From Mogibacterium sp. (lineage in GTDB: Bacteria > Bacillota > Clostridia > Peptostreptococcales > Anaerovoracaceae), in assembly GCA_017432075.1 (NCBI GenBank), contig JAFRJV010000059.1, positions 1 through 46,484 on the forward strand: a stretch of 46,484 nucleotides of DNA, written 5' to 3'. The notes under the pieces are model-generated. The model made no database searches. It saw only the letters and a program-made list of their open reading frames with translations, and was not told the DNA's origin. The number at the start of each line of letters is the position of its first letter. Positions within the stretch are counted from its first letter, which is position 1. The translations under genes were made by a program, and so were the position numbers. Below are positions 2,859-28,433 of this stretch, piece after piece.

Positions 2859-2869
2859 TTTATTCCGGT

Positions 2870-3328: not shown

Positions 3329-3330
3329 GT

Positions 3331-4626: not shown

Positions 4627-4677
4627 CTATCCCATCTCCTTTCCTTATATTTCTATATCTGCATCTTCACTGATATT

Positions 4678-4700: not shown

Positions 4701-4704
4701 CCTT

Positions 4705-6165
4705 TTAATTGTCAGCCAGTTTCGAATTGTTCTTCATGCGTACGCTCGAGGTGTCGAGAATGCGGCCGAGAGTCTTTGTGGTCTCTTCCTTTGCGGCTTC
4801 ACATATCTTCTTATTGGCTTCTGCGGCCAGCGAATAGTCACCCGTCTCAGCCATTTTTTTATCATATTCTATGATGAGCCTGCGTGCGCGGATGTTGACG
4901 GCATCCTGATAGCGCTCGATGTTCTGTATACAGTGATCGTAGTTCTTATCAGCCATGGCTCCGATGAGTCTTGATGCCCAGAACAGGTTCTCTGTCGAAA
5001 CATCAAGCGTCACTTTGCTCAGGTAGTCAGGGATCGACGGTACGCTTGTATACAGCGGCACCCAGCACGAGAATGTGGTGCATCCGTAGCATATCCACTG
5101 GAGACCTCTGGTTTCAGCAGGCATCCCGTTTCTGATCTGCGTTATATGAGTAACACCGGTGCGGTTTATGCCTATAGGGCGGTACTTCCCGCTCAGACCG
5201 ATCTCGTGTTTGCCGTAAGGATCGTAAGGTGTACCCTGGAAGTGTGCCGACAGCAGATACTGTACGTCTTCGACAGTGACCTTTCTGTCAGGTACCAGCG
5301 ACCACGGAATATCGTCGCTCTCCAGTCCGAACTCGGCATCAGGGCCGTCCCAACTGTGTGACTTCGGAGCGAGATAGCGTCCGATGAACCAGGCTCTCGG
5401 AGTATTGTAGACATGATCCATATCGCGGCGCGATCCGAATATCTTTCGCGGATCGAACTCTCCGTTCTGATTGCAATCGAGGTTATTATCGCGGATGAAC
5501 TCCCTGAGGTCAGCCGAGCACATGTGAGACTCCTGCTTTCCGAACGCATCATCCAGATCGAAATTGTCGGTACTGAACTGGTTCGGATTGATCACGACTC
5601 TGTCTTCAGGGATCTTTGTCGCGATCCAGTGATGTCCGCCTATGGTATCCATCCACCAGACTTCGTTTTCATCATTGAAGGCGATACCGTTCGATTCGTA
5701 TGTCCCGTACTCCTCGATCAGTGACGCAAGCCTTTCTACACCTTCTCTCGCGCTGTGTATATACGGCAGTACCAGCACCACTATATCCTCTTCACCGATG
5801 CCTCCCGGGACTTCCCTTTTGCGGCCCTTTGCCGGCTGGTATTCCACAAGCGGATCTGCCGACAGAACGAGAGGATTTGAAGTGAGCGTTTCAGTCGCGG
5901 ACATTCCCACGCCTGCCGCGTTGATGCCCGTCGCAGCCCATATCCCGTGTTCAGGATCCACGCTCGGACATGCTGTGTATCTCATCGGATCGTCCGGCAG
6001 CTGTATCTCTAAATGCGAGATCTTGCTCTTATACTTTTTCGGTTGTTTTTTCGGCCCGACTACTATGGTCTTCTTTACGTCGAAGTGACCATCGTCAGTC
6101 CTTGAAATCATTGTTGAATTATCATTACTAGCCCTTTTCCCTACCAATACAGTAGTACACGACAT
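4705..6165 (-). CDS. C69-family dipeptidase
   Basis: An N-terminal-nucleophile hydrolase of the PepD/C69 family, about 486 residues with the start used here. I place the start at 6165 because AGGAGG lies nine bases upstream and the protein then begins Met-Ser-Cys-Thr-Thr. This puts the expected catalytic cysteine at residue 3, near the terminus exposed by processing. The next stretch (Lys-Arg-Ala-Ser-Asn-Asp-Asn-Ser) is typical of the family, as is the later WWMDT motif. The frame runs open a further 20 codons upstream, but that would bury the nucleophile. Members cleave a broad range of dipeptides. Placement before aconitase X and D-serine ammonia-lyase suggests it feeds amino acids to that operon. 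No lipobox or long signal peptide is seen. Confidence 0.9.
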   Translation of the reverse strand: MSCTTVLVGKRASNDNSTMISRTDDGHFDVKKTIVVGPKKQPKKYKSKISHLEIQLPDDPMRYTACPSVDPEHGIWAATGINAAGVGMSATETLTSNPLVLSADPLVEYQPAKGRKREVPGGIGEEDIVVLVLPYIHSAREGVERLASLIEEYGTYESNGIAFNDENEVWWMDTIGGHHWIATKIPEDRVVINPNQFSTDNFDLDDAFGKQESHMCSADLREFIRDNNLDCNQNGEFDPRKIFGSRRDMDHVYNTPRAWFIGRYLAPKSHSWDGPDAEFGLESDDIPWSLVPDRKVTVEDVQYLLSAHFQGTPYDPYGKHEIGLSGKYRPIGINRTGVTHITQIRNGMPAETRGLQWICYGCTTFSCWVPLYTSVPSIPDYLSKVTLDVSTENLFWASRLIGAMADKNYDHCIQNIERYQDAVNIRARRLIIEYDKKMAETGDYSLAAEANKKICEAAKEETTKTLGRILDTSSVRMKNNSKLADN

Positions 6166-6223
6166 TAACCTATTCCTCCTTAAAAAAACTGTTAAGACAA
6201 ATATATCACAATCACGGACACAC

Positions 6224-6249
6224 AAAAAGGAGCGGGACGCGCCCGCTCC
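6224..6249 (-). terminator. rho-independent terminator after the MFS gene
   Basis: A perfect eight-base stem (GGAGCGGG at 6229-6236 with CCCGCTCC at 6242-6249) and a five-base loop. It is followed on the minus strand by five T (6228-6224). It lies nine bases past the MFS stop and separates that gene from the dipeptidase. Confidence 0.85.
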
Positions 6250-9825: not shown

Positions 9826-12198
9826 TTAGAATGACTGAGCAGTACGGTTGATGATCTCGTTCTGGAGCTCCTCGTCGAGGTTCCTGAAGTAGTCGGAATA
9901 TCCGGCTACGCGTACGATCAGATCCTTGTAGTCATCAGGATGCTTCTGAGCCTCAAGCAGTGTCTCCTTGTCGAAGACGTTGAACTGGATGTGGTGGCCG
10001 TCCATCGCGAAGTATGTTCTGATAAGGCTTGCCAGATTTTCGAGTCCTGTATCTCCCGCAAGGGCGCTCGGCGTGAATTTCTGGTTCAGAAGAGTTCCGC
10101 CGGTTGAGCAGTGATCCATCTTTGCGCACGACTTGATTACGGCTGTAGGTCCGTGTGTATCCGCGAATTTCTCCGGCGAAATGCCTTCGGATACCGGTTT
10201 CTTAGCGCGTCTGCCGTTTGCGGTAGCGCCGATCACCTCTCCGAAATAGATATGGCATGTCGTCGGGAGCATGTCGACATGATACTGTCCGCCGCTCATA
10301 GTCGGACGTCCGGTCACTTCGTCCCTGTACTGCCTGAATACGTCCTGCATGATGTCATCGGCGTAGTCATCGTCATTGCCGTACTTAGGCGTCTTGTTCT
10401 GCACCATGTTGAGTATCTCCTCGTGGCCGACGAAGTCGTCATCCAGCGCCGTCATGAGCTCCCTCATAGTGAAGTTTTTATTATCGTAAACATTGTACTT
10501 AATGGCTGCGAGGCAGTCAGTGACCGTTCCGATACCAACGCCCTGGATATATCTTGTGTTGTATCTGGAGCCTCCGTTGTTGTAGTCCTTGCCGTTGCTG
10601 ATGCAGTCATTCGTAACTATCGACAGGCACGGAGCAGGCATGTACTTTGCGTAGAGTTTCTCGATGACGTTGTTTCCGCGGACCTTTACGTCTACCATGT
10701 GCTTCAGCTGGATCGCGAACGCGTTCCAGAGTTCTTCATATGTGTCGAAATCCCAGGCATATCCCGTCTCAGGTCCGAGCTGCTTGCCGCTCTGATCGTC
10801 AAAGCCGTTGTAAAGTGTCAGCTGGAAGATCTTAGGGATATTGAGATATCCGGTAAGTATGTAAGCCTCATTGCCCCACGAACCGGTCTCAACGCATCCG
10901 GACGAGCCGCCCTGGCGCGCATCAGCAAGAGTCTTTCCAGCATTCAGCAGCTCCTGTACGATCTCGTCAGTGTTATAGAATGCAGGCTGGCCCCATCCCT
11001 CTCTTGAGATCTCGCATGCTCTCTTAAGGAATCTGTGCGGAGTCTTTTTGCTTATCTGAACATTGGAATTTGGCTGCACCAGCTTCATCTCGTCCATGCA
11101 GTCGAGTATGAGATAGCTGACAGCGTTAACGCCGTTTGTTCCGTCTTCCTTTATACCGCCCGTGTTGATGTTGGCGAAGTCCGTATATGTACCACTCTCC
11201 TTGAGAGTAACGCCTACCTTTACCGGTGCCGGCTGGTTGTTGAACTTTACCCACAGGCACTCCAGCAGCTCAAGGGCTCTCTCGTCATCGAGTATGCCCG
11301 CCTCTGTATCCTTTTCGTAATATGGATACAGATGCTGGTCGAGTCTGCCCGGGCTGAAAGCGTCCCACGGATTAAGCTCTGATGTGACAGCCAGATGCGT
11401 GAACCAGTACAGCTGGATCGCCTGCCAGTATGTCTGCGGCGCATGTGCCGGTACGACATCCAGGTTTGCTGCCATCTGCTCAAGCTCCGCCTTGCGCACC
11501 GGGTCCCCGCACTTTTCCGCCTCTGCCTTCAGCAGCTTCTGGTATCTCTGGCCGAGTATCATGACTGCGTCGCAATCGATGAGCATGGCCTCGAGCTCGT
11601 CTTTCTTTTCGACCGCTTCGATATCGTTCATGAAATCGAGAGCGTCGATGGCAGCCTGTATCTCCTCTTTATATTCTGCGTATCCTTTAGTGAATACGTT
11701 CTTTCCTCCGCATGTATGTCCCGGACCTCTCTGCTCCATGAACTCGGTGAACATGCCGGCTGCATAGCATTTCTTCCACTCATGTGTCATTCCGGCGATG
11801 ATCTTGTCTCTCATGGACTTGCCCTTCCAGAACGGGATGATTATTTCCTCCTGGTCCTTAAGGTCCTGCTTCGTCACGGTATAGTTGACGACAGCTCGGT
11901 CATTCATTATATACATGTCTTCGATCGTGTGGCATGTGAGTTCAGGGAATGTAGGTGAAGACTGCGGATCCTTTCCTTTTTCACCGACGATAAGCTCGCC
12001 TTCTCCGAGGTAGAGCGTCTTCTTGCTGAAGTACTCCCTGAGCACCATCGCTCTGAGTACAGGAAGAGACACTTTGCCCTCCCACTTTTTGTATACCTCA
12101 GTCTCTATGATCGCTCTTTCGAGGTCGATGTGAGGCTGAGTCTCCATGCTAACCTTGCGGAGTGCCTTTACCCTTGCGTTCATTCCACGTTCTTCCAT
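9826..12198 (-). CDS. hypD: trans-4-hydroxy-L-proline dehydratase, glycyl radical enzyme
   Basis: A glycyl radical enzyme of 790 residues that dehydrates trans-4-hydroxy-L-proline to pyrroline-5-carboxylate. The thiyl cysteine is C435 in GCVETG, with the base Glu at 437. The radical glycine is G766 in RVAGYSDYF near the C-terminus. These lie one residue from the positions I recall for Clostridioides difficile HypD (C434, G765). Long stretches also match my memory of that protein, for example FMEQR.PGHT and ARYNTRYIQGVG. GGAGG lies six bases before the start. The activase gene is directly upstream (2-base gap). The usual neighbour proC (pyrroline-5-carboxylate reductase) is not in this window, so the product must be reduced or used by an enzyme coded elsewhere. 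Confidence 0.93.
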   Translation of the reverse strand: MEERGMNARVKALRKVSMETQPHIDLERAIIETEVYKKWEGKVSLPVLRAMVLREYFSKKTLYLGEGELIVGEKGKDPQSSPTFPELTCHTIEDMYIMNDRAVVNYTVTKQDLKDQEEIIIPFWKGKSMRDKIIAGMTHEWKKCYAAGMFTEFMEQRGPGHTCGGKNVFTKGYAEYKEEIQAAIDALDFMNDIEAVEKKDELEAMLIDCDAVMILGQRYQKLLKAEAEKCGDPVRKAELEQMAANLDVVPAHAPQTYWQAIQLYWFTHLAVTSELNPWDAFSPGRLDQHLYPYYEKDTEAGILDDERALELLECLWVKFNNQPAPVKVGVTLKESGTYTDFANINTGGIKEDGTNGVNAVSYLILDCMDEMKLVQPNSNVQISKKTPHRFLKRACEISREGWGQPAFYNTDEIVQELLNAGKTLADARQGGSSGCVETGSWGNEAYILTGYLNIPKIFQLTLYNGFDDQSGKQLGPETGYAWDFDTYEELWNAFAIQLKHMVDVKVRGNNVIEKLYAKYMPAPCLSIVTNDCISNGKDYNNGGSRYNTRYIQGVGIGTVTDCLAAIKYNVYDNKNFTMRELMTALDDDFVGHEEILNMVQNKTPKYGNDDDYADDIMQDVFRQYRDEVTGRPTMSGGQYHVDMLPTTCHIYFGEVIGATANGRRAKKPVSEGISPEKFADTHGPTAVIKSCAKMDHCSTGGTLLNQKFTPSALAGDTGLENLASLIRTYFAMDGHHIQFNVFDKETLLEAQKHPDDYKDLIVRVAGYSDYFRNLDEELQNEIINRTAQSF

Positions 12199-12200
12199 CT

Positions 12201-13112
12201 CTATCCTCCGATTTTCACATTGCCGAATCCGGCTTCATTCCATTGGCTGACGAAACCCTGCATCTCTTCGTCTGACGGTGCTGTCAGTGACTGCCCCGTG
12301 TATTCCATCCCCAGCTTTCCGTACTTGTGTGAGCCGGTGCTGTGATAAGGCAGCAGATTTACCTGCAGCGGTCTTATGTTATTGGTTTTGAGAAATTCTA
12401 TTATCTCGGACATCGATCCTGCGTCCCCGTTGACCTCTCTGACGACCGGTATCCTGATATATATCTTAGCTCCTGAACCGGCCAGCCGTGTCAGGTTTTC
12501 AAGTATGAGCTTATTCCCCATGCCCATGTACTTCCGGTGCTTTTCCTCATCCATGACCTTGATGTCATAGAGCCATGTGTCTACATAAGGAAGTATCGCC
12601 TCGTAATTGCTGTATGGAGCCTGTCCGCATGTGTCTATTGCGATGTCAACGCCTTCCCTGTGCAGCTTTTTCACGAGTTTCAGGATGTAGTCTGTGTCCA
12701 TCGCCATGACTTCTCCGCCGGAAAGAGTAACTCCTCCTCCGGACTGCTCATAGAACATGAGGTCCTGCATGCATATCTTAACGAGCTCGTTTATGCTGTA
12801 GTCGCGTCCCACTACGGTACGGTAATTTCCCAGACATGCCGCCTCGCATCTGCCGCAGATGACACACTTTTCCCTGTCCGTCACGGACTTTCCCTCCGGC
12901 GATATCGATATGGCACCATGAGGGCAGACAGCTGCACATCTTCCGCAGCCCGTGCATTTCGGGATGTCCACCTGAAGCTCTTTTTCGAAGCTCTGTGTCT
13001 CGGGGTTGTGACACCACTGACATCTGAGGTGGCAACCTTTGAAAAACACCGTCGTCCTTATTCCGTCACCGTCATGTATTGAGTATTTCTGTATATTAGT
13101 TACCGAATGCAT
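12201..13112 (-). CDS. hypE: HypD-activating radical SAM enzyme
   Basis: A glycyl radical enzyme activase of 303 residues. The radical SAM cluster motif CxxxCxxC is at C27, C31 and C34. It is followed by a ferredoxin-like insert with two CxxCxxCxxxC sets (C53-C63 and C83-C93). A GGE-type SAM-binding motif (LSGGE) follows. It uses S-adenosylmethionine and a reduced cluster to abstract hydrogen from G766 of HypD. The gene ends two bases before hypD, so the pair is almost certainly co-transcribed and translationally coupled. The ribosome site (AGAGAAA) is weak, as expected for an enzyme needed in small amounts. Confidence 0.92.
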   Translation of the reverse strand: MHSVTNIQKYSIHDGDGIRTTVFFKGCHLRCQWCHNPETQSFEKELQVDIPKCTGCGRCAAVCPHGAISISPEGKSVTDREKCVICGRCEAACLGNYRTVVGRDYSINELVKICMQDLMFYEQSGGGVTLSGGEVMAMDTDYILKLVKKLHREGVDIAIDTCGQAPYSNYEAILPYVDTWLYDIKVMDEEKHRKYMGMGNKLILENLTRLAGSGAKIYIRIPVVREVNGDAGSMSEIIEFLKTNNIRPLQVNLLPYHSTGSHKYGKLGMEYTGQSLTAPSDEEMQGFVSQWNEAGFGNVKIGG

Positions 13113-16254: not shown

Positions 16255-17409
16255 TTATGATTCGAACTTTTCCGCTACTGTTTTCAGGAGTTCTCTTATC
16301 TCCAGATGCTGCGGGCATACCGCCTCGCACATGCCGCATTCTATGCAGTCTGCCGGCTTTCCGCTCCCGTGCTCGATAATGAATTCATATGTCTCCCACG
16401 GATTGTTTTTGCCGAAGAGGACCTCGTTGTTATAGCACGCGAACAGCTTCGGTATCCTTATCTCCATCGGGCAGTGATTTTCCTCAACACAGTATCTGCA
16501 CTGTGTGCACGGAATCGCTCCTTTGGAAGCAAAGACTTCCGTGACCTTTTTTACAGCCTCAAGCTCCCTGTCGCTGAGAGGAGCGAAGTCTCCGTCATTG
16601 CAGCTAAAAGTTTTCAGATTGTCTTCCATCTGCTCCATATTGCTCATGCCGGACAGGATCATCTCCATGCCGTCAAAGCCGGCAGCAAACCTGAGGGCGT
16701 AGCCTGCGTTACTGCAATCCGATCCTGTCTCAGCCCTGAGATCGTCGAACACCTTCTGCGCATCTTCAGGCAGATTGACGAGATTTCCGCCTCTTACCGG
16801 CTCCATCACGAGCACAGGTTTATTGTGTTTGCGGCAGACTTCATATACCTTGCGGCTTTCTACGGAAACACTCTCATAGTCGAGATAGTTGAACTGTATC
16901 TGGACTATTTCCACATCAGGATACTCCGTGAGAATGCGGTCGAGCACCTCTGCCTTGTCGTGGAACGAAAGACCGACGTGGCGGACCTTGCCTTCTGCCT
17001 TAAGGGCAAAGGCTGTCTCGTAAGCACGGCACTGTTTGAAAAATTCGAAATTCTTCGCGTTCTGAGCATGCATCAGGAGGAAGTCGAAGTACTCCACTCC
17101 GCATGTCTCCAGCTGCAGGTCTATCAGCGGCCTGATGTCCTCTTCCGTTTTGAAATACTCGTCAGTCAGCTTGTCTGTCAGGACATATTCACTGCGGTCA
17201 TGTCTTGAAGTGAGGCACTCCCTGACGGCGACCTCGCTCAGTCCGTCGTGATAGCCGTGAGCGGTATCGAAGTAGTTGAATCCCTTTTCGAGGAACAGGT
17301 CGACCATTTTGCACACCTGCTCATTGTCGATCTTGTCATCCTTCATCGGCAGTCTCATCATGCCGAACGCGAGATGCTTTTTGTTTTCACTGAATGCTCT
17401 GTTACCCAT
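16255..17409 (-). CDS. aldo/keto reductase with C-terminal 4Fe-4S ferredoxin domain
   Basis: A 384-residue protein. An N-terminal aldo/keto reductase barrel has the catalytic tetrad visible as D48, Y53, K80 and H114. The C-terminal part carries ferredoxin cysteines: CTQCRYC...C near residue 300 and CIECGMCEAVCP near 360. Such proteins reduce aldehydes or ketones and may take electrons from ferredoxin-like carriers as well as NAD(P)H. GGGGAG precedes the start. It begins 21 bases after the end of the SCP2-like glycyl radical enzyme gene and is the last gene of that run. It may therefore reduce an aldehyde or ketone made by that enzyme, as alcohol or aldehyde dehydrogenases do beside diol dehydratases. 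The link is inferred from position only. Confidence 0.88.
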   Translation of the reverse strand: MGNRAFSENKKHLAFGMMRLPMKDDKIDNEQVCKMVDLFLEKGFNYFDTAHGYHDGLSEVAVRECLTSRHDRSEYVLTDKLTDEYFKTEEDIRPLIDLQLETCGVEYFDFLLMHAQNAKNFEFFKQCRAYETAFALKAEGKVRHVGLSFHDKAEVLDRILTEYPDVEIVQIQFNYLDYESVSVESRKVYEVCRKHNKPVLVMEPVRGGNLVNLPEDAQKVFDDLRAETGSDCSNAGYALRFAAGFDGMEMILSGMSNMEQMEDNLKTFSCNDGDFAPLSDRELEAVKKVTEVFASKGAIPCTQCRYCVEENHCPMEIRIPKLFACYNNEVLFGKNNPWETYEFIIEHGSGKPADCIECGMCEAVCPQHLEIRELLKTVAEKFES

Positions 17410-17430
17410 AGTTTTCTCCCCTTTTATATA

Positions 17431-20394
17431 TTACATGCTGTAATCCGCGCGGCGTACAAGCTCAAGCTGCAGATCACGGTTAAGCTGTGTGAAGTAAGCG
17501 TTGTAGCCCGAGATGCGTACCATGAGGTCCTTATACTCCTCCGGTCTTGCCATCGCAGCACGCATCGTCGCCGATGATACAACGTTGAACTGCATCTGCA
17601 TGCCGCCCATCGTGGCGTATGCCTTTGCGTAGTTGGTGACATGTTCCACCGTCTGCTCGTGGCTGTCGCGCGGTGACGGATTAACCTTTACATTGAACGC
17701 GATGTTGTTGTTCATGCTCGTAGGCTCGAGTCTCGTTACATCGCGGATATTGTCGAGCAGGCTCTTCGAAGCATTGGCTTCAGGCGTAAGTCCCGGAGTA
17801 AACGGTTCGTAAGCCAGACGTCCGGAAGGCAGTGCGCCGGTCAGGGCTCCGAATGCGACGTGGTTCGACATCGACCAGAAGCCTGTGGTGTAATGGCCTC
17901 CGCGGAAGTTCAGGTGAGACCAGAAGCAGTCCTTCATGAACTTCGTAACACGGTTGGCAACCTCAACGGCTTCATCGCTGCCTGAACCGAACCTCGGAGT
18001 TTCCGTCAGTATCCTGCTGCGCATTACATCGTTGCCTTCGAAATTGTTTCTGACAGCTTCGACCAGCTCATCAAATGTGTAAACTTTGCGGTCGTATACC
18101 AGGCTCTTGATGGCCATCAGTGAATCCACTATGTCTGCCAGGCCGATGCATGCAGTACCGGATGAATTGTATTTTGACCCGCCTTTTGTGACATCCAGCC
18201 CTTTCTCTATGCAGTTGTCTACCATTGCAGACATGAGCGGCGTAGGACGTATCACGGAGTGCGCTTCTCCCAGATAGTTGTTGTACTGGCATGTCAGATC
18301 CGCAAGGCATTCAAGCTGTTTGAAGAAGGCCTCGAGGAATTCATCGAATGTTCTGAATTCACTTACTTCGCCGGTCTTTGGTCCGAGATGCCAGCGCATG
18401 AGCGGATGATATCCGTTATAGAGCGCCATCTCAAGGGCAGCCACCATATTGAACATCATGCAGTTAGTGTGTCCGATATGCTTTCCTGAAATCGTAGGCT
18501 CCACGCATCCTGTCGCTGACCAGTCGCGGAGATCCTCCGGTTCGTAGTTGAGGTCGACAAGAGATGCCATTACCGCTTCATCGTTATGTATGGATGGTGT
18601 GGATGTAGTGTGTACGTTTACCTCGCACAGGCGGCGAAGGTAGACATCACTGTTCTTCTGAGGATTGTAGCGGGCGTTTACATTAGGGTCACGCATGCCA
18701 AGCATCTCAGTTACCTTGAGGAATACATATGTCATGTCGTTGACTGCGTCTTCTCCTTCAGGTGTTATGCCTCCAAGAGTGATCGCTTGGTCGGATGAGC
18801 TGCCTCCGAAGAGGTAATTGCCGATATCCGGCACGAGAGGCACATGATCCTGGCAGCGGAGATAGAAGCAGCCGAGAAGCTCGAGCACATGTGAAACGTA
18901 CGAGTCGCGCTCCTCTTTTGTTTTCAGCTTCGCCATGTCCGCTTCAAAGAACGGCTGCAGCCACTGGTCCATGCGGCCAAGCGAGAATCCCGCGTTGGTG
19001 CTCTCCATGTGTACTCCTATCCAGTGTACCCAGATGGCATGGACGGCCTCATCCATGTTGCGGGCCGGGAATTCCGGTGAATGCGCCACAGCTTCGGCGA
19101 TGACCTCAAGTTCCTTTTTCCTCTTCGGATCAGTCTCCGCATCAGCTTCTTTGCGGGCCTGCTCTGCAAGATGACGCGCATATGTGATCATGCCCTCATA
19201 GCAGAGTATCATGGCATTGAGCTCCTGCTGTTTTGCCTCAGGAACGTCAGGCTTTGCAAGTTCTTCTTTTATTTCATTGATTATACCCGTGAGGCCGAGC
19301 CTCAGGAGTTTAGGATAGTCAAGAATAGTATGTGAAAGAGCTACCGTCTTCCACATGAAGCACGCCGCCCAGCGCTCGTCGAGCTGCTGGCATTTCGGCT
19401 CATGGTATTTATTGCGGACATATTCTCTGAATGTACGGTTGACCCAGTAAGGAAACACATCTGAATTCAGGGCTTTTATCTCCCAGTCCTCAAGAGGTTC
19501 GTAAGGCTGCAGCATGCGCTCACTGACAGTGAGCAGCTCACCCCAGATGAGGACGCCTACGCCGTCAGGATAGATCGGTACGCCTATTTCCTTGGTTGTC
19601 GTAGTACCGGCCAGAAGATCGCCCTTGCGTATGATCGGTTTCTTCTTCTCCATCAGGTACTTGAACGCCTGTCCCTGACGAAGCTCAGGCACCCACGGTG
19701 TACCGTCGTATTTTACTTCGAATCCGTTTTTGCGGTACCAGTCCGTAAGGATCACCGCACGTTCCACACAGATCGCAGGGCGGTCGCTCAGGTGCTTGTC
19801 GAGATACTCTTTCAGCCGAGGGAACTGATCCAGTTTATATGTCGAAAGATAAGGATCGTCAGTTATGCACTTCACTCCCGGGTCGGCTTTCTCAGCCTTC
19901 AGGAATTCAAGCGGAGGGCGTACGCGCTCCGCATCAGGATCTTCTGCCATCTCCCTTCCTGTGCTTTCGCGTTCCTCGATCTGCGCATGCATCTGCTTTA
20001 CCTGCTTGTCCTTCATAAGAACGGATATAAGCAGATTGAACAGTTCGAGGTAGGACATGTTGCCGCTGCTCGCCATCTTATTTTTGAGCATCAGATTGAG
20101 AACTTCATTAGGAGGCAGCGATGCCAGCTGCGCAAGCACGCCGGTATCCTGAAGGATCAGCTTTGTATCAACGCCGTCGATGTTGTTTCTTACTTTAGCG
20201 TTTCCTCCCTGGAACCATATGCTCTGCGCCACGGCGCCGTCTTCAGTCGTCAGTCCGATAGAGAAATTGATCCATCCGTCTCTGGTCTTCAGATATTCCT
20301 GATTCTTCTTCACCTTTGAGAATTCGAAGGCGAAGAATTGCAGTACAGCGTTTGCCAGACGGTTTGCGATCGCTCCGCTTACTTTGCTGTTCAT
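17431..20394 (-). CDS. long glycyl radical enzyme with N-terminal SCP2-like domain, substrate unknown
   Basis: A 987-residue glycyl radical enzyme. The start is set at 20394, where AGGAGG lies seven bases upstream; a frame start 18 bases earlier would contain that AGGAGG. The radical glycine is about G963 in VRISGYNAYF. The thiyl cysteine is about C630 in ATGCVEP, with a Glu two residues on, as in eliminases, dehydratases and the hydroxyphenylacetate decarboxylase branch. Pyruvate formate-lyase's Cys-Cys pair is absent. Residues about 15-125 lie before the catalytic barrel and resemble a sterol-carrier-protein-2 (SCP2) lipid-binding fold (for example DGVDTKLILQD and LPPNEVLNLMLKNKM). HypD (790) and most dehydratases lack this region. 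Its activase is directly upstream and an Fe-S aldo/keto reductase follows. The extra domain hints at a hydrophobic or CoA/lipid-linked substrate; this is inference. Confidence 0.87.
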   Translation of the reverse strand: MNSKVSGAIANRLANAVLQFFAFEFSKVKKNQEYLKTRDGWINFSIGLTTEDGAVAQSIWFQGGNAKVRNNIDGVDTKLILQDTGVLAQLASLPPNEVLNLMLKNKMASSGNMSYLELFNLLISVLMKDKQVKQMHAQIEERESTGREMAEDPDAERVRPPLEFLKAEKADPGVKCITDDPYLSTYKLDQFPRLKEYLDKHLSDRPAICVERAVILTDWYRKNGFEVKYDGTPWVPELRQGQAFKYLMEKKKPIIRKGDLLAGTTTTKEIGVPIYPDGVGVLIWGELLTVSERMLQPYEPLEDWEIKALNSDVFPYWVNRTFREYVRNKYHEPKCQQLDERWAACFMWKTVALSHTILDYPKLLRLGLTGIINEIKEELAKPDVPEAKQQELNAMILCYEGMITYARHLAEQARKEADAETDPKRKKELEVIAEAVAHSPEFPARNMDEAVHAIWVHWIGVHMESTNAGFSLGRMDQWLQPFFEADMAKLKTKEERDSYVSHVLELLGCFYLRCQDHVPLVPDIGNYLFGGSSSDQAITLGGITPEGEDAVNDMTYVFLKVTEMLGMRDPNVNARYNPQKNSDVYLRRLCEVNVHTTSTPSIHNDEAVMASLVDLNYEPEDLRDWSATGCVEPTISGKHIGHTNCMMFNMVAALEMALYNGYHPLMRWHLGPKTGEVSEFRTFDEFLEAFFKQLECLADLTCQYNNYLGEAHSVIRPTPLMSAMVDNCIEKGLDVTKGGSKYNSSGTACIGLADIVDSLMAIKSLVYDRKVYTFDELVEAVRNNFEGNDVMRSRILTETPRFGSGSDEAVEVANRVTKFMKDCFWSHLNFRGGHYTTGFWSMSNHVAFGALTGALPSGRLAYEPFTPGLTPEANASKSLLDNIRDVTRLEPTSMNNNIAFNVKVNPSPRDSHEQTVEHVTNYAKAYATMGGMQMQFNVVSSATMRAAMARPEEYKDLMVRISGYNAYFTQLNRDLQLELVRRADYSM

Positions 20395-20405
20395 ACCATT
20401 TCCTC

Positions 20406-21317
20406 CTAACATTCGATGCCTTCACTGCGGAATATGTCTTTGCAATGCTCCATTTTTTCATTGCTCTGCCAGGATCTTACACCTGCAAGCTCTTTCGCAA
20501 GTCCTACACCCAGTTTCTCTGTCTTCCCGTACCAGGTTGGGTTGTACGGAAGAAGTTCTGTCCTTTTTACTCCGGTCTCTTTATACAGACCGGCGATCGC
20601 GCCAAGGTTTTCATCTGTATCCGTGATGTCCGGGATAAGAGGCGTGCGCGGCAGAAACGAGAATCCCATCTCTGCAGAATCCGCCACCAGTCTCCTGAAG
20701 TTCTCCAGTATCACATCGTTGTAAATGCCACAGTATTTTTTATGAGTTTCACGGTCGAATATTTTCACATCCATGTATATGCTCGACACGAAAGGCAGCA
20801 GCTTTTCGCGGACCTTTTCATAATTGAACATCCCTGACGTCTCGATATGGACACACATGCCTGCTTCTGTCAGCCTCTTCGCCAGTTCTCCGGTCCAGTC
20901 GGTAAACATAGTCGGCTCTCCGCCGGTCAGAGTCACGCCGCCGCCTGATACGTCATAGAACGGTTTATCAGCTGCGCACTTCTGTACTATCTCATCCATG
21001 GACATCTGCACACCTACACGCTGAATTGCTTTTGGCGGGCAGTTTTGGGCACATGTAAAACAGCGGACGCATTTCGTCCGGTCGACTATTCCCGGTTTCG
21101 CAGGATCGGCAGCGCCCTGCGGGCATACGCTGCGGCACGTACCGCAGCCAATGCAGTCTGCAAGCGAGACCGAAAGTTCGGCCTCGACATGTTTGCTTTC
21201 CGGATTATGGCACCAGATACAGCTCAACGGACATCCCTTGAAAAATACGGCCGTACGGATTCCCGGGCCATCATCCAGTGAATTGCCTTTAAGTTCAAGC
21301 ACTAACGGACTTTCCAT
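20406..21317 (-). CDS. glycyl radical enzyme activase (radical SAM) for the SCP2-like enzyme
   Basis: A radical SAM protein of 303 residues with CxxxCxxC at C29, C33 and C36. A two-cluster ferredoxin insert follows (C55, C58, C61, C65 and C83, C86, C89, C93), then LTGGE. The layout matches HypE and other activases. The gene ends 11 bases before the start of the long glycyl radical enzyme, which almost certainly makes that protein its partner. The ribosome site is poor (an A/G-rich stretch without GGAGG). It starts 28 bases after the glutaminase stop, so it is probably read on the same message. Confidence 0.92.
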   Translation of the reverse strand: MESPLVLELKGNSLDDGPGIRTAVFFKGCPLSCIWCHNPESKHVEAELSVSLADCIGCGTCRSVCPQGAADPAKPGIVDRTKCVRCFTCAQNCPPKAIQRVGVQMSMDEIVQKCAADKPFYDVSGGGVTLTGGEPTMFTDWTGELAKRLTEAGMCVHIETSGMFNYEKVREKLLPFVSSIYMDVKIFDRETHKKYCGIYNDVILENFRRLVADSAEMGFSFLPRTPLIPDITDTDENLGAIAGLYKETGVKRTELLPYNPTWYGKTEKLGVGLAKELAGVRSWQSNEKMEHCKDIFRSEGIEC

Positions 21318-21345: not shown

Positions 21346-22407
21346 TCAGATTATATGAGATTCCCTGATACCCTTTATCAGCTCATTTTCTTCTTCTGTC
21401 TCCCTGTTCCATTCAGGATCATAGAAGAGATTAAGTCTCAGATCATTTGATATCTCCCTGAGGAGCTTGCATCCTGCGATGCTGTTGCCCTGCGAATCGA
21501 GAGCCGGTCCGAACACCCCTAACCCTGCACGCTTGTCGGAAACAGACAGCAGGCCTCCTCCTACTCCCGACTTGGTAGGGATGCCTACCTTTATGGCAAA
21601 CGATCCCGATCCGTCATACATGCCGCAGGTAAGCATAAGGGTCTTGGCGATACGGGCAGTACGTGAAGACATGAATCTCTTTCCTGAATCACCGCACACT
21701 CCGTCATTTGCCAGTATCGCGCCGAGATTTGAGAGTGAATCCGCCGTGGCGGTCATAGAGCACATCTTTGTATAAAACCTTAACGTATCCTCGACGTCCT
21801 TATTCAGAATGCCCTTGCTCTGGAGGAGGTATGCAATGGAACGGTTGCGGGAGCAGGTTTTCATCTCCGATTCGTAGACTGCCTCATTCAGCTCTATTTC
21901 CGGATCTGAGCATATGTTTCTGGTAAACCTCAGTATATCCTGGAACGACAGCTCAGGAAGCAGAAGTCCGCAGAGAGCAAGCCCTCCCGAGTTGATGAGC
22001 GGATTGTACGGTTTCGAGTTGCTGACATCGAGCTCCACCAATGAATCGAATGCTTCACCCGAAGGCTCCATGCCCACTTTGCCGAACACTGCCTTGCGTC
22101 CGCATAACTCGAGAGACACAATCAGCATTATTACCTTGCAAACCGACTGCATGGTAAATCTGACATCGTAATCGCCCATGCAGATTTTTTCACCCTTAAG
22201 CGGTTTTATTACTATTCCCAGCTGATGAGGATCCACCTTTCCGAGCTCAGGAATGTATGTAGCTACCTTGCCATTTGGGATCTCCTCTCTTGCAAGGCCC
22301 ATGGCTTTTTTTATTATTTCTATCGCCTTGGATCTTTCCTGCAGCTTGTATTGTTTGTCTATTACCAGCTGTTCTTCTCCCGGTCCGTTGTTTTTTATAT
22401 CAGTCAT
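21346..22407 (-). CDS. glsA: glutaminase, serine beta-lactamase-like family
   Basis: A 353-residue enzyme that hydrolyses glutamine to glutamate and ammonia. The Ser-x-x-Lys catalytic pair is S88 and K91 in MQSVCK, and the family segment PLINSGGLA aligns with the usual PMINAGA-type motif. It is about 30-50 residues longer than common bacterial GlsA, mainly at the N-terminus. The ribosome site is an AGGGGGG stretch. It lies between the LysR gene (18 bases) and the glycyl radical activase (28 bases). Together with isocitrate dehydrogenase and citrate lyase, it suggests that glutamate and 2-oxoglutarate are part of the pathway encoded by this run. Confidence 0.9.
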   Translation of the reverse strand: MTDIKNNGPGEEQLVIDKQYKLQERSKAIEIIKKAMGLAREEIPNGKVATYIPELGKVDPHQLGIVIKPLKGEKICMGDYDVRFTMQSVCKVIMLIVSLELCGRKAVFGKVGMEPSGEAFDSLVELDVSNSKPYNPLINSGGLALCGLLLPELSFQDILRFTRNICSDPEIELNEAVYESEMKTCSRNRSIAYLLQSKGILNKDVEDTLRFYTKMCSMTATADSLSNLGAILANDGVCGDSGKRFMSSRTARIAKTLMLTCGMYDGSGSFAIKVGIPTKSGVGGGLLSVSDKRAGLGVFGPALDSQGNSIAGCKLLREISNDLRLNLFYDPEWNRETEEENELIKGIRESHII

Positions 22408-22425: not shown

Positions 22426-23325
22426 CTATTTTACCCCATTTCCGGATTCATGCGATATATGTTTTGCCAGCTCCCAGACACTCTGTACTTCCGGGCTCAT
22501 CTCATGTGATGAGGATCTCAGCACACAGATATCCCTGTACATCGATGAGTCGGCAAACGGTATGCTTTTGACATTGAAACTGTCCAGGATCGGAAGTATA
22601 GGCATTATTGCCACTCCGCTGCCCATCGAGACTGAAGCTGCGATGGAACTGTACTCATCAGCCTCGATTATCGTATTCGGTTCAAACTCTGCCTTTCTGA
22701 ACTCTTTCTCGAGCTGATGGTATGTAAGCGTTTCGTGATTGAGCGAGATAAAGTACTCTCCCGCTATATCAGACAGGGTGACCGATTCTGCATCCGCGAG
22801 CCGGTGTGTTGACGGAACTATCAGAAAAAGCTCCTGCCGGTAGATCGGTATGTAGTCGATCGAAGCCAGCTCCGGTTTTCCTGCGATCAGCAGATCCAGA
22901 GAACCGTTGATCAGCAGCTCTATAAGTTCTCCTGCCTTCCCCTGACGGAAGCGGAAGGCGATCTGCTCATTTCCCTGATGCATATAGAATTTGTTGACAA
23001 ATTCAGGCAGTGCGGAAAAGCTGACGCTGTAAATATAGCCCATGCTGATCCCTCCGGAAGCAGGGACTTTCATCTCTCTCAGATGTTCTGTACCTTCTGA
23101 GAGTTCCGCGAGCGCTCTCTTTGCATAGGGGAGGAACTCCTCACCGTATTTTGTAAGCGTCACTTTTTTGCCGTCCTTTTTAAACAGAGGCACACCCAGC
23201 TCCTGCTCGAGTTTGTTCAGAGCATAGCTGAGGCTCGGCTGCGATATGTACAGCAGCCGTGAAGCGCGGGTATAATGCAGCACTTCGGCAGTAACGCAAA
23301 AGTATCTCAGCTCCTGGAGTGTCAT
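22426..23325 (-). CDS. LysR-family transcriptional regulator
   Basis: A 299-residue regulator. The N-terminal winged helix-turn-helix (about 1-60) has the typical LysR pattern, including SQPSLSYALNKLEQELGVPLF. A periplasmic-binding-like effector domain follows (about 90-295). Its ATG overlaps the stop of citXG by four bases (ATGA), so it is translated with that gene rather than from a divergent promoter, which is unusual for LysR proteins. Glutaminase follows after 18 bases. It may sense citrate, glutamate or the glycyl radical enzyme's substrate and control part of this run; no operator could be assigned to it. Confidence 0.9.
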   Translation of the reverse strand: MTLQELRYFCVTAEVLHYTRASRLLYISQPSLSYALNKLEQELGVPLFKKDGKKVTLTKYGEEFLPYAKRALAELSEGTEHLREMKVPASGGISMGYIYSVSFSALPEFVNKFYMHQGNEQIAFRFRQGKAGELIELLINGSLDLLIAGKPELASIDYIPIYRQELFLIVPSTHRLADAESVTLSDIAGEYFISLNHETLTYHQLEKEFRKAEFEPNTIIEADEYSSIAASVSMGSGVAIMPILPILDSFNVKSIPFADSSMYRDICVLRSSSHEMSPEVQSVWELAKHISHESGNGVK

Positions 23326-24644
23326 TCCGGTCCACCTCTTTCGTCAGTAAACAGATCAGCGCTGATGGTCTGCCAGCGCTCAAGCAGAAAAGCAAGCGCA
23401 AGCATATCCGCGCTGCCTCCCGGGGACAGATTGCGGCTGATCAGCTCCCTGTCCAGCGCATGCAGCGCGTCGATACGGCCGGCAGCAGGCATGTCCGATA
23501 TCCGGCCGGCCGCCCGTCTTACATATTCAAGGCCCTCTCTGCCGCCCCTGTGAAGCAGGTTGGTGTCCTCCAGGGCGGCCATGCTGTCGCACAGGGCAAG
23601 GGCGGCCGGCTCCGTGCAGCCGCTTTCCCTGTAAACAGTGAGCCTTTCAAGGCAGTACAGCGCACCGGGGAATCCCGCGGATGCTTCTCCCGTGGCGCCT
23701 CTGGCGCCGTATTTCTTATACGCTGCTCCGCCGTTGGTAACGGGAGCAGCAAGTGTTTTCTTCAACCGGATCTCAGCATCTTCACGGGCTAAAGCCGCTG
23801 CGTGTTCAACGCACGAACCGCCTTCGGTCAGACATCTGCCCATTCCCGCAAGGAGCAGGCCCATGGAATATATGAGACCCTTGTGAGTGTTCACGCCGCC
23901 GGTCGCGGTGAACATCTCCGCTTCGGCTCTCATGCCGCGCTCCCGCAGAATACCGATCCCGCAGTGCTCCATGCCTAGCGCGGCTGCGTCTTCAAAGTAA
24001 GATGTAAGCGCATCCGCACTTTTCTCGAATAAAGGCACATCCATGTCCGGATGCGCACCGTTATTGTTCAGGTCAACAAGTCCCGGTTTAGGGGTCGTAT
24101 ACAGCTCATCCAGAAGGGAGTCGCGGGCAGCCTGCGCCAGTTTTCCGGCACAGAAATCCCTGAGCAGTTCACCCGTCACTCTCTTCACCTCTTCGAGGCC
24201 ATGTTTTCTGCTCCTTGCGCATTCCGCCGCATAGGCGTCGCAGATAAGGCAGCGCCGGCCTTCCGCCCTTGAAAGCTTACTCCCGCCGGGCATTATCACA
24301 TCGAAGTCAAAGAGCCTGGCAGCAGGGAATGAATCCTCGACTTTCTCGAGGCTTGCTTTCACCTGTGTCCCCTCTTCATCGAGCAGCCAGAAAGCCTCGC
24401 TCCCGGTCGCTTCGTCCAGAAGGAACTCCTTCCTGACACTGAATCCGAGTACGTTCATCTCTGAAATGCCGGCATCGAAAAGCATACGCGTCATAGGCGT
24501 GCGCTTTATGTCACCGGCGATGTTCATCGTGAGGCAAACGAGGCACTGCCCCGGTCCCGCATCCTGCAGCATCGCGCTCTGTATCGATGCCCGTCTTTCG
24601 CGGGCCATGAGCATCTGATCAAGATCTACGCTGTATGACTTCAT
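23322..24644 (-). CDS. citXG: CitX-CitG fusion for citrate lyase prosthetic group
   Basis: A two-domain protein of about 440 residues. The N-terminal CitX part (about 1-165, ending near a CLICDAYAAEC segment) transfers the phosphoribosyl-dephospho-CoA group to CitD. The C-terminal CitG part makes its precursor from ATP and dephospho-CoA; the start of this domain shows TTPKPGLVD and NNGAHPDMD. The start is set at 24644, where GGAAAG lies five bases upstream; a start at 24668 is also open but has a poorer site. It overlaps citC by 26 bases. Such fusions are known in some citrate lyase operons. It completes the maturation set with citC. Confidence 0.9.
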   Translation of the reverse strand: MKSYSVDLDQMLMARERRASIQSAMLQDAGPGQCLVCLTMNIAGDIKRTPMTRMLFDAGISEMNVLGFSVRKEFLLDEATGSEAFWLLDEEGTQVKASLEKVEDSFPAARLFDFDVIMPGGSKLSRAEGRRCLICDAYAAECARSRKHGLEEVKRVTGELLRDFCAGKLAQAARDSLLDELYTTPKPGLVDLNNNGAHPDMDVPLFEKSADALTSYFEDAAALGMEHCGIGILRERGMRAEAEMFTATGGVNTHKGLIYSMGLLLAGMGRCLTEGGSCVEHAAALAREDAEIRLKKTLAAPVTNGGAAYKKYGARGATGEASAGFPGALYCLERLTVYRESGCTEPAALALCDSMAALEDTNLLHRGGREGLEYVRRAAGRISDMPAAGRIDALHALDRELISRNLSPGGSADMLALAFLLERWQTISADLFTDERGGPE

Positions 24645-25584
24645 AAGTGCTTTCCGGTACCATCTCACCGGTCTTTTCAGGTTCCCCTGCTTCGATAAGC
24701 GTTCTCACCTTCCCGGCGCTGATCTCCGCAAAACGCGGTATCTCTTCGAATCTGATACCATAAGCCGGGAGCAGCTCTTTCATGCGCTCGTTGTACGCGC
24801 GTGTCACAGGTGAAAACGGTTCTTCTCCCGCGAAGCGGATGCTTATATTCAGCGCAGGAGCTATCCGCCTGCAGAACAGTTCAATGTCGAGGTCAGACTT
24901 CACCAGATCCGCGCGGGACTCGTCCCTGATGAAATATGCCGGGAACGTGGCCCGTGAGATCAGATAAAGGTCACTTTCAAATACGTGGCAGTTCTCAATG
25001 TCCGCAGTCCCCTTTCTGATCATTTCAAGCCGCTCTTCAGGGCTGAACATCGACCCCTTCTCGGAGACCGCAAAAACATACAGGCTGTCGCAGTGCGCCG
25101 CGGCGTATTCGATCAGATGGCGGTGTCCGAGGGTAAAAGGATCGCAGTTGCATACCACCGCTCCGCACACGCCGTCATACTTGGGTATGGATGCCAGGAA
25201 GCCGTCCAGACCTCCCTTTCTGTTCTCGAGCAGTACAGCATCCTTTGTTTCTATGACCGAATGAAATCCCATGGATCTGAACATGCTGAGATTCTCGGGT
25301 TTTGTGCACAGAAAGAGGCGGTGGATGCCGGCAGCATACGCTTCTGCTATAAGAGCAGAGAGGACTGCAGCCATCGCGCCCTGTCCTTCCGCATCAGAAG
25401 AAACAGCAAGCTGCTTCACCGTGTGCCCTGCCAGGGCTCCGCAAGCGATCAGCCTGCCATCTTCAGTCATCAGCGCTATTATGTCAGCATCCCCTTCATC
25501 ACGCAGGCCGCATGCTTCAAGGAGCTGCAGATATTCTTCCTTCTGCCGTGCAGACAGCGGCGGACTGTAAATTCCGATACCCAT
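24619..25584 (-). CDS. citC: citrate lyase acetyl-ligase
   Basis: A 321-residue enzyme that acetylates the prosthetic group of CitD with acetate and ATP and so turns citrate lyase on. A GNAT-like N-terminal domain (about 1-125) is followed by a nucleotidyltransferase-like domain with the motif CNCDPFTLGHRHL at 145-157. GGAGG is near the start. It lies 64 bases after icd with a terminator between them, so it is read either by read-through or from a promoter I cannot see. Its end overlaps citXG. Confidence 0.92.
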   Translation of the reverse strand: MGIGIYSPPLSARQKEEYLQLLEACGLRDEGDADIIALMTEDGRLIACGALAGHTVKQLAVSSDAEGQGAMAAVLSALIAEAYAAGIHRLFLCTKPENLSMFRSMGFHSVIETKDAVLLENRKGGLDGFLASIPKYDGVCGAVVCNCDPFTLGHRHLIEYAAAHCDSLYVFAVSEKGSMFSPEERLEMIRKGTADIENCHVFESDLYLISRATFPAYFIRDESRADLVKSDLDIELFCRRIAPALNISIRFAGEEPFSPVTRAYNERMKELLPAYGIRFEEIPRFAEISAGKVRTLIEAGEPEKTGEMVPESTYEVIQRRS

Positions 25585-25605
25585 CGTCCCTCCGGGTCAA
25601 ATATG

Positions 25606-25637
25606 AAAAAAGGAGACAGGGCAAAAGTCCTGTCTCC
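25606..25637 (-). terminator. terminator between icd and citC
   Basis: A nine-base perfect stem, GGAGACAGG (25612-25620) with CCTGTCTCC (25629-25637), is followed by six T on the minus strand (25611-25606). It sits inside the citrate gene run, after icd. It should reduce expression of citC and everything downstream relative to the catalytic genes. Confidence 0.85.
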
Positions 25638-25648
25638 ATGTGGAACTT

Positions 25649-26857
25649 CTATAACTTTTTCTCAAGGCGCTCACGGATCGCAGCGATAAAGTCCTTCGTG
25701 AGCACAGCTTTGGCTTCCATGCCGTCAACGAGTCCGACCAGGTCCTTCGTCATGATGCCGTCATTGAGCGTATCTATGCACGCTTCCTCCAGCTTGTCGC
25801 CGAATGCCTGCAGGTCTTCGAGTCCATCCATTTCGCCGCGCTTTCTGAGTGCGCCGCTCCATGCGAATATCGTCGCCATCGGGTTCGTGGAGGTCTCTTC
25901 TCCATTGAGATATTTATAATAGTGGCGCGTTACAGTGCCGTGGGCAGCCTCATACTCGAACTTGCCGTCAGGGCTGCAGAGTACGGATGTCATCATGGCG
26001 AGCGAACCGAACGCAGTGGATACCATGTCGCTCATTACATCTCCGTCATAGTTCTTGAGAGCCCAGATGAATCCTCCCTCGCTGCGGATGACACGCGCGA
26101 TGGCGTCGTCGATCAGCGTATAGAAATATGTGAGACCGAGCTCTTCAAACTTCTCCTTGTAGTATTCATCGTAAACTTCCTGGAATACGTTGCGGAAATG
26201 CATGTCGTACTTCTTAGAGATGGTGTCCTTTGCGGAGAACCAGAGATCCTGCTTTGTCTCGATGGCGTACTTGAAGCATGAGTGAGCGAAGGAGTTAATC
26301 GAGGAATCCTTGTTGTAAATGCTCTGGAGTATGCCCGGGCACTCGAAGTCGTATACTGTCTCGCGGTATTCAGCGCCGTTCTCGCCGGTGAATACCAGCT
26401 CAGCCTTGCCCTTTTCAGGAACGCGGTATTCAGTTCCCTTATAGAGATCGCCGTATGCGTGACGTGCAACAGTGATAGGCTTCTTCCAGTTGCGCACTAC
26501 AGGCTTGATGCCGTCGATCGTGATCGGTGCGCGGAATACTGTTCCGTCGAGTATCGCACGGATGGTGCCGTTAGGGCTCTTCCACATCTCATGCAGGTTG
26601 TACTCGGTCATGCGCTGTGCGTTTGGTGTGATGGTTGCGCACTTTACGCCTACGCCGTACTTCTTGATAGCTTCTCCGGCATCCTTCGTGATCTGATCGC
26701 GTGTCTCATCTCTTACAGGAAGACCGAGATCATAGTATTCCGATTTCAGGTCGACGAAAGGCAGGATGAGCTCATCCTTTATCATCTTCCAGAGTATCCT
26801 TGTCATTTCATCCCCGTCCATCTCGACGATAGGGGTGGTCATTCTGATTTTTTCCAT
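25649..26857 (-). CDS. icd: NADP-dependent isocitrate dehydrogenase
   Basis: A 402-residue enzyme of the eukaryote-like dimeric NADP-isocitrate dehydrogenase group. The start reads [16 protein letters not shown], and the substrate segment [16 protein letters not shown] is clear. It interconverts isocitrate with 2-oxoglutarate, CO2 and NADPH. AAGGAG precedes the start by five bases. It is 25 bases after citF, and a terminator follows. Beside aconitase and citrate lyase it links citrate to 2-oxoglutarate. The reaction is reversible when CO2 and NADPH are plentiful, so direction cannot be judged from sequence. Confidence 0.95.
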
Positions 26858-26882
26858 TTTTACTCCTTATATCTCCTGATCC

Positions 26883-28433
26883 TTATACGTCCTTGATCTG
26901 TCTTACGACGTCCATGATAGTGCCGTCGCGGGCTTCGATTATGCCTACTATCCTGTCCTCAAACTCGACCTTATCCGGCTCTCCTACTATCGAATACGCG
27001 ATATCGCGGAGCTCTTCTATGGTCTTGAGCGGCACACAGTCAGCTTCCCTGAGAGCCTGCAGGATGTCCTGTCTTGCAGGATTTACAGCTACTCCGTAAT
27101 CCGTGACGACTACGTCGATACTCTCGCCCGGTGTGGTGACCGTTGTGACCTCGGAGCAGATCGCCGGGATCCTGCCCTGAAGCAGCGGGCAGATCACTAT
27201 CGCGCATTTTGCTCCCTGAGCCGTGTCAGGATGCCCGCCCTGTGCGCCAGTGATCATTCCGTCCGACCCGACTACTACATTACAGTTGAAGTTTACATCC
27301 ACCTCAAGGGATGCCAGCACCACGTAGTCGAGCTTGTTCACGACAGCACCCTTGTTGAGTGGGTTTGCGTAAACGGCAGCCGGTATCCTGTGGTGGTTCA
27401 CGTTCTTCAGGCTTCGCACTGCATCGAGGTCGAAATCCTGTACGTCGAGCATTACGTCTGCCATGCCGTCATCGAGAAGCTTGCACATTGCCTTAGTGAG
27501 TCCGCCGACTCCGAATCCCATACGAATGTTGCGCTCTCTCATGATATCCGCCAGATACTGGGTCGAAGCGATCGACGCTCCGCCTACACCCGTCTGATAA
27601 GAGAAGCCGTCCCTGAACCAAGGTGTGTTGACTACTACGTCTGTGCAGTACTGCGCCATGAGGAGCTTTCTCTGGTCTGTAGTCGGCTTTGCAGCGCCTG
27701 TCGCGATCTTGGACGGGATACCTATCTCGTCGACTACGCACACATAGTCTACCTTTGTCTGCGAGATGTGAGCCGGAAAGTTCGGATACGGGACCAGGCA
27801 GTCAGTTATGGCTACGCAATGATCTGCGTGGTTGCCGTCTACTATAGCGTAACTCAGCACGCCGCAGTCCGCCTTGCCGCCGATACCTCTGAGGTTTCCG
27901 TAATCATCCGAAGTCGGCGCTCCGATGAAAGCTATGTCGATATGGCTCTCTCCTGTCGCGATCGATCTTACACGTCCGCCGTGTGAACGCATTATGGCCA
28001 GGCCTTTAAGCTTGCCCTTCGAGATGGCTTCGCCTATGCCGCCTCTTACTCCTGAGGACTCGATGTTCGTTATTGTGCCGTCCTCTATCATCGGAACGAG
28101 CGCGCTGTGCGCCTTGCCGAGCGAGGATGCGCATATCCTTATATCCTTGAGACCCATATCGTGGATCTCCTTCATTACCATGTTGACTATCAGGTCTCCC
28201 TCACGGAAGTGATGGTGGAACGATACAGTCATTCCGTCGTGCGCATCACACTTCTCCAGAGCTTCTCTGATACTGTTTACCAGTTTGGATTTCTGGTTGT
28301 TCATTACCGGACGTATGGTAGGACCGTGCAGTGTGATCGGCTTATCGTCGCGGTAATAGTTGCCCTGAAACGGCTCTTTCCCGGTGATCTCGAGTATCTC
28401 TTCCGGGATCTCTCTTCCTACTGCGTTTTTCAT
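26883..28433 (-). CDS. citF: citrate lyase alpha subunit (citrate CoA-transferase)
   Basis: A protein of 516 residues, the usual CitF length. Family marks include the early HHHFREGD segment and the glycine-rich GVGGASIAST stretch. It transfers the acyl carrier from acetyl to citryl in the cytoplasmic citrate lyase complex. It begins one base after the stop of citE, so translation is coupled. The order citD, citE, citF is the standard one. Confidence 0.95.
   Translation of the reverse strand: MKNAVGREIPEEILEITGKEPFQGNYYRDDKPITLHGPTIRPVMNNQKSKLVNSIREALEKCDAHDGMTVSFHHHFREGDLIVNMVMKEIHDMGLKDIRICASSLGKAHSALVPMIEDGTITNIESSGVRGGIGEAISKGKLKGLAIMRSHGGRVRSIATGESHIDIAFIGAPTSDDYGNLRGIGGKADCGVLSYAIVDGNHADHCVAITDCLVPYPNFPAHISQTKVDYVCVVDEIGIPSKIATGAAKPTTDQRKLLMAQYCTDVVVNTPWFRDGFSYQTGVGGASIASTQYLADIMRERNIRMGFGVGGLTKAMCKLLDDGMADVMLDVQDFDLDAVRSLKNVNHHRIPAAVYANPLNKGAVVNKLDYVVLASLEVDVNFNCNVVVGSDGMITGAQGGHPDTAQGAKCAIVICPLLQGRIPAICSEVTTVTTPGESIDVVVTDYGVAVNPARQDILQALREADCVPLKTIEELRDIAYSIVGEPDKVEFEDRIVGIIEARDGTIMDVVRQIKDV

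Follow-up and report, generated by a model that had tools for sequence, protein, structure and literature searches.

A glycyl radical enzyme family with an N-terminal SCP2-like domain, a candidate eliminase for hydrophobic alcohols in anaerobes

Many abundant glycyl radical enzymes (GREs) of the gut have unknown functions, according to excerpts of a 2024 review (PMC11574389). As far as the portions covered of the relevant papers go, the characterised GRE eliminases (GD, PD, CutC, HypD and IslA) act on small water-soluble substrates. The window analysed here, a stretch of 46,484 nucleotides from Mogibacterium sp. (assembly GCA_017432075.1, contig JAFRJV010000059.1), encodes an oxygen-sensitive enzyme of this class with an additional N-terminal domain resembling SCP2, the sterol carrier protein. 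What would a domain of the lipid-carrier type do on a radical enzyme, and on what kind of substrate might such an enzyme act?

The GRE gene is the second of three on the minus strand. The first (20406..21317) encodes a radical SAM GRE activase of 303 residues, which matched Radical_SAM and Fer4 in Pfam and TIGR02494, the glycyl-radical enzyme activating protein model (255.6 bits, cut-off 174.35); no function-specific activase model was matched over its cut-off among the 25 of 40 NCBIfam matches listed. The longest GRE open reading frame (17431-20412, minus strand) has 993 residues. Its start is likely the ATG at 20394, because an AGGAGG ribosome-binding site (20402..20407, minus strand), which overlaps the activase stop, lies 7 bases upstream; this gives a protein of 987 residues (17431..20394). 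In the 993-residue numbering, Pfam PFL-like covers residues 206-855 (E = 9.9e-175) and Gly_radical residues 871-975 (E = 5.6e-21), both over cut-off. The third gene (16255..17409, minus strand) encodes an aldo/keto reductase (AKR) of 384 residues with a C-terminal Fe-S dicluster domain (Aldo_ket_red, E = 7.4e-40, plus Fer4 dicluster matches). With the ATG at 20394, the gaps given in a previous sequence-only reading, 11 bases between activase and GRE and 21 between GRE and AKR, are exact. The Cys-Val-Glu motif and the radical glycine in VRISGYNAYF named in that reading are both present in a protein that Pfam confirms as a GRE, and its estimate of about 200 residues more than HypD agrees with the 790 residues of the HypD in the window. 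A glutaminase gene (21346-22407, minus strand) lies 28 bases upstream of the activase, between it and a LysR-type regulator; at a related locus (L005) the LysR gene directly adjoins the activase and the glutaminase is absent between them.

That HypD (1432 bits, cut-off 1100) belongs to a possible hydroxyproline-use cluster (2870-6225 and 9826-13112), together with its activase (432 bits, cut-off 425), aconitase X and its swivel part, and a C69 dipeptidase. A flavin enzyme (7621-9759, plus strand; Oxidored_FMN and Pyr_redox_2) lies beside HypD on the opposite strand. At 23322-28433, Pfam identifies genes accessory to citrate lyase, one for citrate lyase ligase and one for a fused CitX-CitG; the open reading frames that follow are taken by appearance to be isocitrate dehydrogenase and CitF. 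The same genome carries a third GRE (L002, G000:C112:1149-3503), which scored 688 bits to CutC (cut-off 1050).

When scanned alone, the N-terminal domain of the window protein (residues 1-145; 19960..20394, minus strand) matched no Pfam family at E ≤ 10. A profile (A2) was taken from the first 145 residues of an alignment (A1) of 40 members, comprising the window protein and 39 of the 44 family open reading frames of 940-1040 residues (L008, L024, L030, L032 and L058 were omitted). Among these 40 sequences, 16 matched Pfam SCP2 weakly (best E = 0.0014) and 24 did not; Thioredoxin_11 was matched weakly by six (best E = 0.00093), and nine further families by one or two each. Searched against 177,635 PDB sequences, A2 gave only four matches at E ≤ 10, all of them SCP2 proteins (best 1c44, E = 0.053). 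Alignment of A2 with an SCP2 profile built from 30 Bacillota loci gave an hhalign probability of 92.1 (E = 6.4e-7) over 73 columns. In the controls, probabilities did not exceed 1.2 for 60 column shuffles of A2, 1.5 for the reversed profile and 0.8 for 22 other families, and the SCP2 profile against the same 22 decoys reached at most 3.2. A2 and PF02036 converge on one stretch of another genome (G199:C8 from 68159), with E = 2.4e-4 and E = 3.8e-4 respectively; a PF02036 search of 40 genomes, the window's own and 39 relatives, gave no match. These profile comparisons establish that the domain is homologous to the SCP2 family (PF02036), and the exact SCP2 fold of residues 1-145 is predicted from them. 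The SCP2-like module proposed from the single sequence is thus recovered by the family profile, with controls, where a single-sequence Pfam scan is blind.

The SCP2 family includes UbiJ and UbiT, and the module occurs beside enzymes or fused to them. UbiJ uses its SCP2 domain to bind ubiquinone intermediates, which are hydrophobic; the same role has been proposed for UbiT in the pathway that is independent of O2, and ubiT also occurs fused to ubiU (PMC6747719, as excerpted). The present family differs in that the module is fused to a GRE and is mostly invisible to the Pfam SCP2 model, and here it would bind lipid by analogy.

An already known extension of another GRE was considered and rejected. 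No known N-terminal extension was recognised: the stretches best shared with PDB entries start no earlier than about residue 190 of the query, and in the long choline lyase 9f3w the match covers the final portion of the chain (residues 363-1145). Nor is a transmembrane anchor likely, given that the peak 19-residue hydropathy mean over the first 160 residues was 1.45 among 11 of the 40 members and 1.14 in the window protein. That the SCP2-like part is not known from characterised GREs, as previously suggested, agrees with NCBIfam, the PDB and open PubMed Central, the collections searched. Among the open full texts of PubMed Central, no related paper combined a GRE with SCP2 or sterol carrier protein. 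Searches there for a GRE similarity network and for AOR with Smithella likewise gave no paper, and none was found among the matches listed for lipid literature with a GRE term.

A scan of genome contigs gave 63 loci, 58 of which (L004-L061) constitute the family; L062-L064 (other GREs, 26-29% identity), L065 (a fragment, 47%) and L066 (97 residues, 44%) were dropped. The hosts are Clostridia of gut and rumen, Syntrophaceae, Smithella, Desulfobacterales, Spirochaetes, Myxococcota and Lokiarchaeota; among them is Desulfoluna butyratoxydans (L046), a sulfate reducer in cultivation. The SCP2-like domain was seen in 52 of the 58 loci, and in the other six (L044, L050, L053, L056, L057 and L060) the GRE starts at base 1 to 3 of its contig. 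An activase was found within 5 kb of the GRE in 45 loci and was absent from that distance in 13. Four of these contigs end less than 1 kb downstream of the GRE (L030, L041, L049 and L061) and two begin less than 300 bases upstream of it (L016 and L060), while L017, L035, L039, L046, L047, L051 and L052 offer no contig-edge reason. Recurrence of the SCP2-like module, GRE and activase across relatives, part of a check set for the original reading, was observed. Two family GREs (L059:9884-12945 and L083:6327-9316) are in two pieces in their assemblies.

The domain also occurs outside the fusion. A search of 398 Bacillota genomes with A2 gave nine matches in 7 genomes, the window's own included: three GREs (one of them the window's), three Mo enzymes, two proteins of about 285 residues and one stand-alone domain. 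The stand-alone gene (L076, 9595-10050; 152 residues) is flanked by genes for a GRE without the extension (10056-12530) and an activase (8684-9595), and the three share one strand; its product matched nothing in Pfam at E ≤ 0.001. With the catalytic domain of the window protein the L076 GRE shares 37% identity; the figure is 26-30% for GD, the window HypD and three CutC sequences. The L076 GRE joins the fused clade with support of 100/100 in a tree whose 31 rows comprise this split member, 20 of the 41 fused ones and 10 further GREs, and which carries a long-branch warning for HypD, C112 and L078. The split form comes from one genome, the sole one of its family in the dataset, and a search for the stand-alone gene in the 398 genomes gave no further split form, its two additional matches being fused GREs. 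The two proteins of about 285 residues (L080:6074-6934 and L081:7013-7864) have two SCP2-like stretches each, and each gene is followed by what appears to be a class III aminotransferase gene.

By sequence the window protein belongs to the GRE superfamily, with both Pfam domains and an invariant Gly963. Its active site was compared in an alignment of 41 family members, GD (glycerol dehydratase, 1r8w), three CutC, the window HypD and four other GREs, a distant alignment in which single columns may be off. Invariant in 41/41 members were Cys630 and Glu632 of the Cys630-Val-Glu632 (CXE) motif (18499..18507, minus strand; GD Cys433-Glu435), the glycyl radical site Gly963 (17506..17508, minus strand; GD Gly763), His355, His603, His639, His642 and Thr643. 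The five residues that we take to form the glycerol site of 1r8w are all changed: His281 and Ser282, presumably an acid pair, are replaced by Ala468 (38/41) and Gly469 (41), and Tyr339, Asp447 and Tyr640 by Asp535 (39), Asn644 (37) and Trp840 (41). By these residues the family falls outside the glycerol/propanediol dehydratases. His355 aligns with GD His164 and with the HypD histidine that was taken as His160, a position at which all three CutC have Asp. HypD variants at His160, Asp278, Asp339 and Glu436 lose activity (PMC7077986, in part), and CXE is described as a conserved feature of GRE eliminases in the part covered of PMC8473560.

None of the 12 NCBIfam models matching the GRE reached its cut-off. 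The best was TIGR01774 (500 bits against 678), followed by HypD (446/1100), CutC (409/1050) and the (2S)-3-sulfopropanediol dehydratases HpsG/HpfG (384 and 377/1000); PflB and PflD scored lower and were also below their cut-offs. With GD and the other CXE eliminases (PD, HypD, CutC and IslA) the protein shares the PFL-like fold family, the CXE motif, the radical glycine and a radical SAM activase. It differs from GD, CutC and HypD in an identity of about 30% at most and in the extra domain, and the SCP2-type GREs form their own clade (100/100 among the 31 rows). As judged from the alignment, the active site fits a hydroxyl-type eliminase with a remodelled pocket. A microcompartment enzyme was considered and rejected; the enzyme's own genome (83% complete) gave no BMC shell match.

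Profile matches within 5 kb of the GRE at the 58 loci comprised TetR (28), SDR (15), AOR (13), extended SDR (12), ferredoxin (11), acyl-CoA ligase (10), DUF169 (2) and AKR (1). Many Deltaproteobacteria have the order TetR, GRE, activase, extended SDR, SDR, with the last two fused in some; in Syntrophaceae, AOR and ferredoxin are divergent from TetR-GRE, and in L008 and L009 the AOR directly follows the GRE. A recurring set that includes the AKR is not supported: the AKR lies near the GRE in one of 58 relatives only (L005, 89% identical) and about 6 kb away in L006. The window AKR is a local variant of the carbonyl-handling neighbours and no family-wide partner. Of the related proposal that the radical product is an aldehyde or ketone that is then reduced, the general part, further processing of a carbonyl product, is supported. 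An AOR, SDR or AKR was present within 5 kb at 29 of the 58 loci; the other 29 had none.

A tree of 11 of the 13 linked AORs and 22 unlinked ones placed the linked AORs in two subfamilies, with two unlinked sequences inside one and one inside the other, and no single GRE-specific clade. The association of GRE and AOR has therefore probably arisen more than once. The number of AOR matches per genome was 5 to 11 in four Deltaproteobacteria (Syntrophaceae) genomes and 1 to 4 in four Bacillota, so that an AOR neighbour is not very rare in Syntrophaceae; the link in L040, at 3.4 kb, may be due to chance.

We give about even chances to a radical eliminase that receives a hydrophobic alcohol from its SCP2 domain and releases a carbonyl product, probably an aldehyde. 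What the sequences show is the homology of the domain, the motifs, the activase, the spread of the family and its neighbours; the following scheme is built on these. The SCP2-type domain would bind the hydrophobic substrate and bring it to the buried active site, and the adjacent activase would generate a radical on Gly963, to be passed to Cys630. The substrate would be a long-chain alcohol or another lipid-like one; the Cys630 thiyl would abstract hydrogen from its carbinol carbon, Glu632 would hold or deprotonate the hydroxyl there, and His355 would aid the leaving group on the next carbon. A 1,2-elimination, in this presumed order of steps, would yield the carbonyl, which the adjacent Fe-S AKR may reduce in Mogibacterium and an AOR or a pair of SDRs may handle in relatives. 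AORs oxidise aldehydes, and for this reason an aldehyde is preferred over a ketone. The closest precedent for SCP2 as a substrate holder beside enzymes, UbiJ/UbiT (PMC6747719, in part), supports the loading role. In favour of this eliminase we count the SCP2 homology with its controls, the domain in 52/58 loci, the L076 split form, His355, the replaced substrate-side residues of GD, and the AOR, SDR, acyl-CoA ligase and AKR neighbours, with AORs from two subfamilies. Against it we count the 29/58 loci without AOR, SDR or AKR, the 13/58 without a nearby activase, the frequency of AORs in Syntrophaceae, the failure of Pfam SCP2 on 24/40 members and the L076 protein, and the weak Thioredoxin_11 matches in 6/40. 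The loss of the GD acid pair to Ala (38/41) and Gly also puts the leaving-group acid in doubt.

The SCP2-like domain might instead be a scaffold for dimerisation, activase docking or partner recruitment, on an enzyme that dehydrates a small polar diol as glycerol dehydratase does. Glycerol dehydratase is the best PDB match of the catalytic part (381 bits), His355 and the CXE motif are kept, and the SCP2 protein UbiJ has an organising part in an enzyme complex as well (PMC6747719, as excerpted). All five glycerol-site residues are changed, however, and acyl-CoA ligases and SDRs recur beside the GRE gene, and we hold this reading to be unlikely.

Quite improbable, in our estimate, is a radical lipid lyase that cleaves glycerol ether lipids (archaeol, alkylglycerols) anaerobically. 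Hydrogen abstraction at the free carbinol carbon would be accompanied by elimination of the alkoxy or hydroxy group next to it, and the SCP2 domain would serve to lift the lipid out of the membrane. Such an activity would fit the spread over rumen, digester and sediment anaerobes, as these live among dying archaea and eukaryotes; no paper on GRE with ether lipid was on point by title and abstract start in open PubMed Central.

The missing His281/Ser282 pair would be compatible with a leaving group that departs without the help of an acid, as in an amine-lyase that eliminates ammonia from sphingoid bases in the manner of CutC and supplies a 3-hydroxy fatty aldehyde to AOR and acyl-CoA ligase, genes found together in 7 of the 58 loci. 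The three CutC rows have Asp where the family has His355, however, and the matches listed for 'glycyl radical' with 'sphingo' included no on-point paper, so that this seems very improbable.

The three Mo enzymes with an N-terminal match to A2 (L077:6124-9117, L078:4963-8046 and L079:6799-9756) are each followed by an Fe-S protein gene. The one that was scanned matched Pfam AhtL-like, of the pyrogallol hydroxytransferase type, and in L078 another GRE (1561-3951) and its activase adjoin the Mo enzyme. As in the GRE family, a related N-terminal domain precedes an anaerobic catalytic subunit; the Mo enzymes differ in their unrelated catalytic domain and cofactor and in a weaker A2 match (17 to 23 bits). 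The shared module, and the GRE with activase beside one of them, could point to an enzyme that acts on aromatic or phenolic substrates, such as a decarboxylase. The decarboxylase models are nevertheless far under cut-off (indoleacetate 288 bits against 1100; HPAD, 4-hydroxyphenylacetate, 207 against 1150) and the Mo enzymes' own substrate gives no guide, leaving this reading little prospect.

Binding of acyl-CoA by the domain, with the GRE acting on a CoA-linked substrate, is just as remote: it can draw on the acyl-CoA ligase within 5 kb at 10/58 loci, but the window has no such gene beside the GRE, where an AOR joins the ligase (7/58) the latter is better placed after an aldehyde than before the GRE, and no finding speaks for the CoA-linked substrate suggested earlier.

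If the hydrophobic-alcohol eliminase is correct, a widespread GRE family with a lipid-carrier-type domain would extend GRE chemistry to hydrophobic substrates, and would provide a concrete gene with which to test for the anaerobic breakdown of lipids in the rumen, in digesters and in sediments. For biochemistry, L076, where the domain is a gene of its own, is a ready two-component system. The layout found in many anaerobes may point to an undescribed anaerobic attack on oily molecules.
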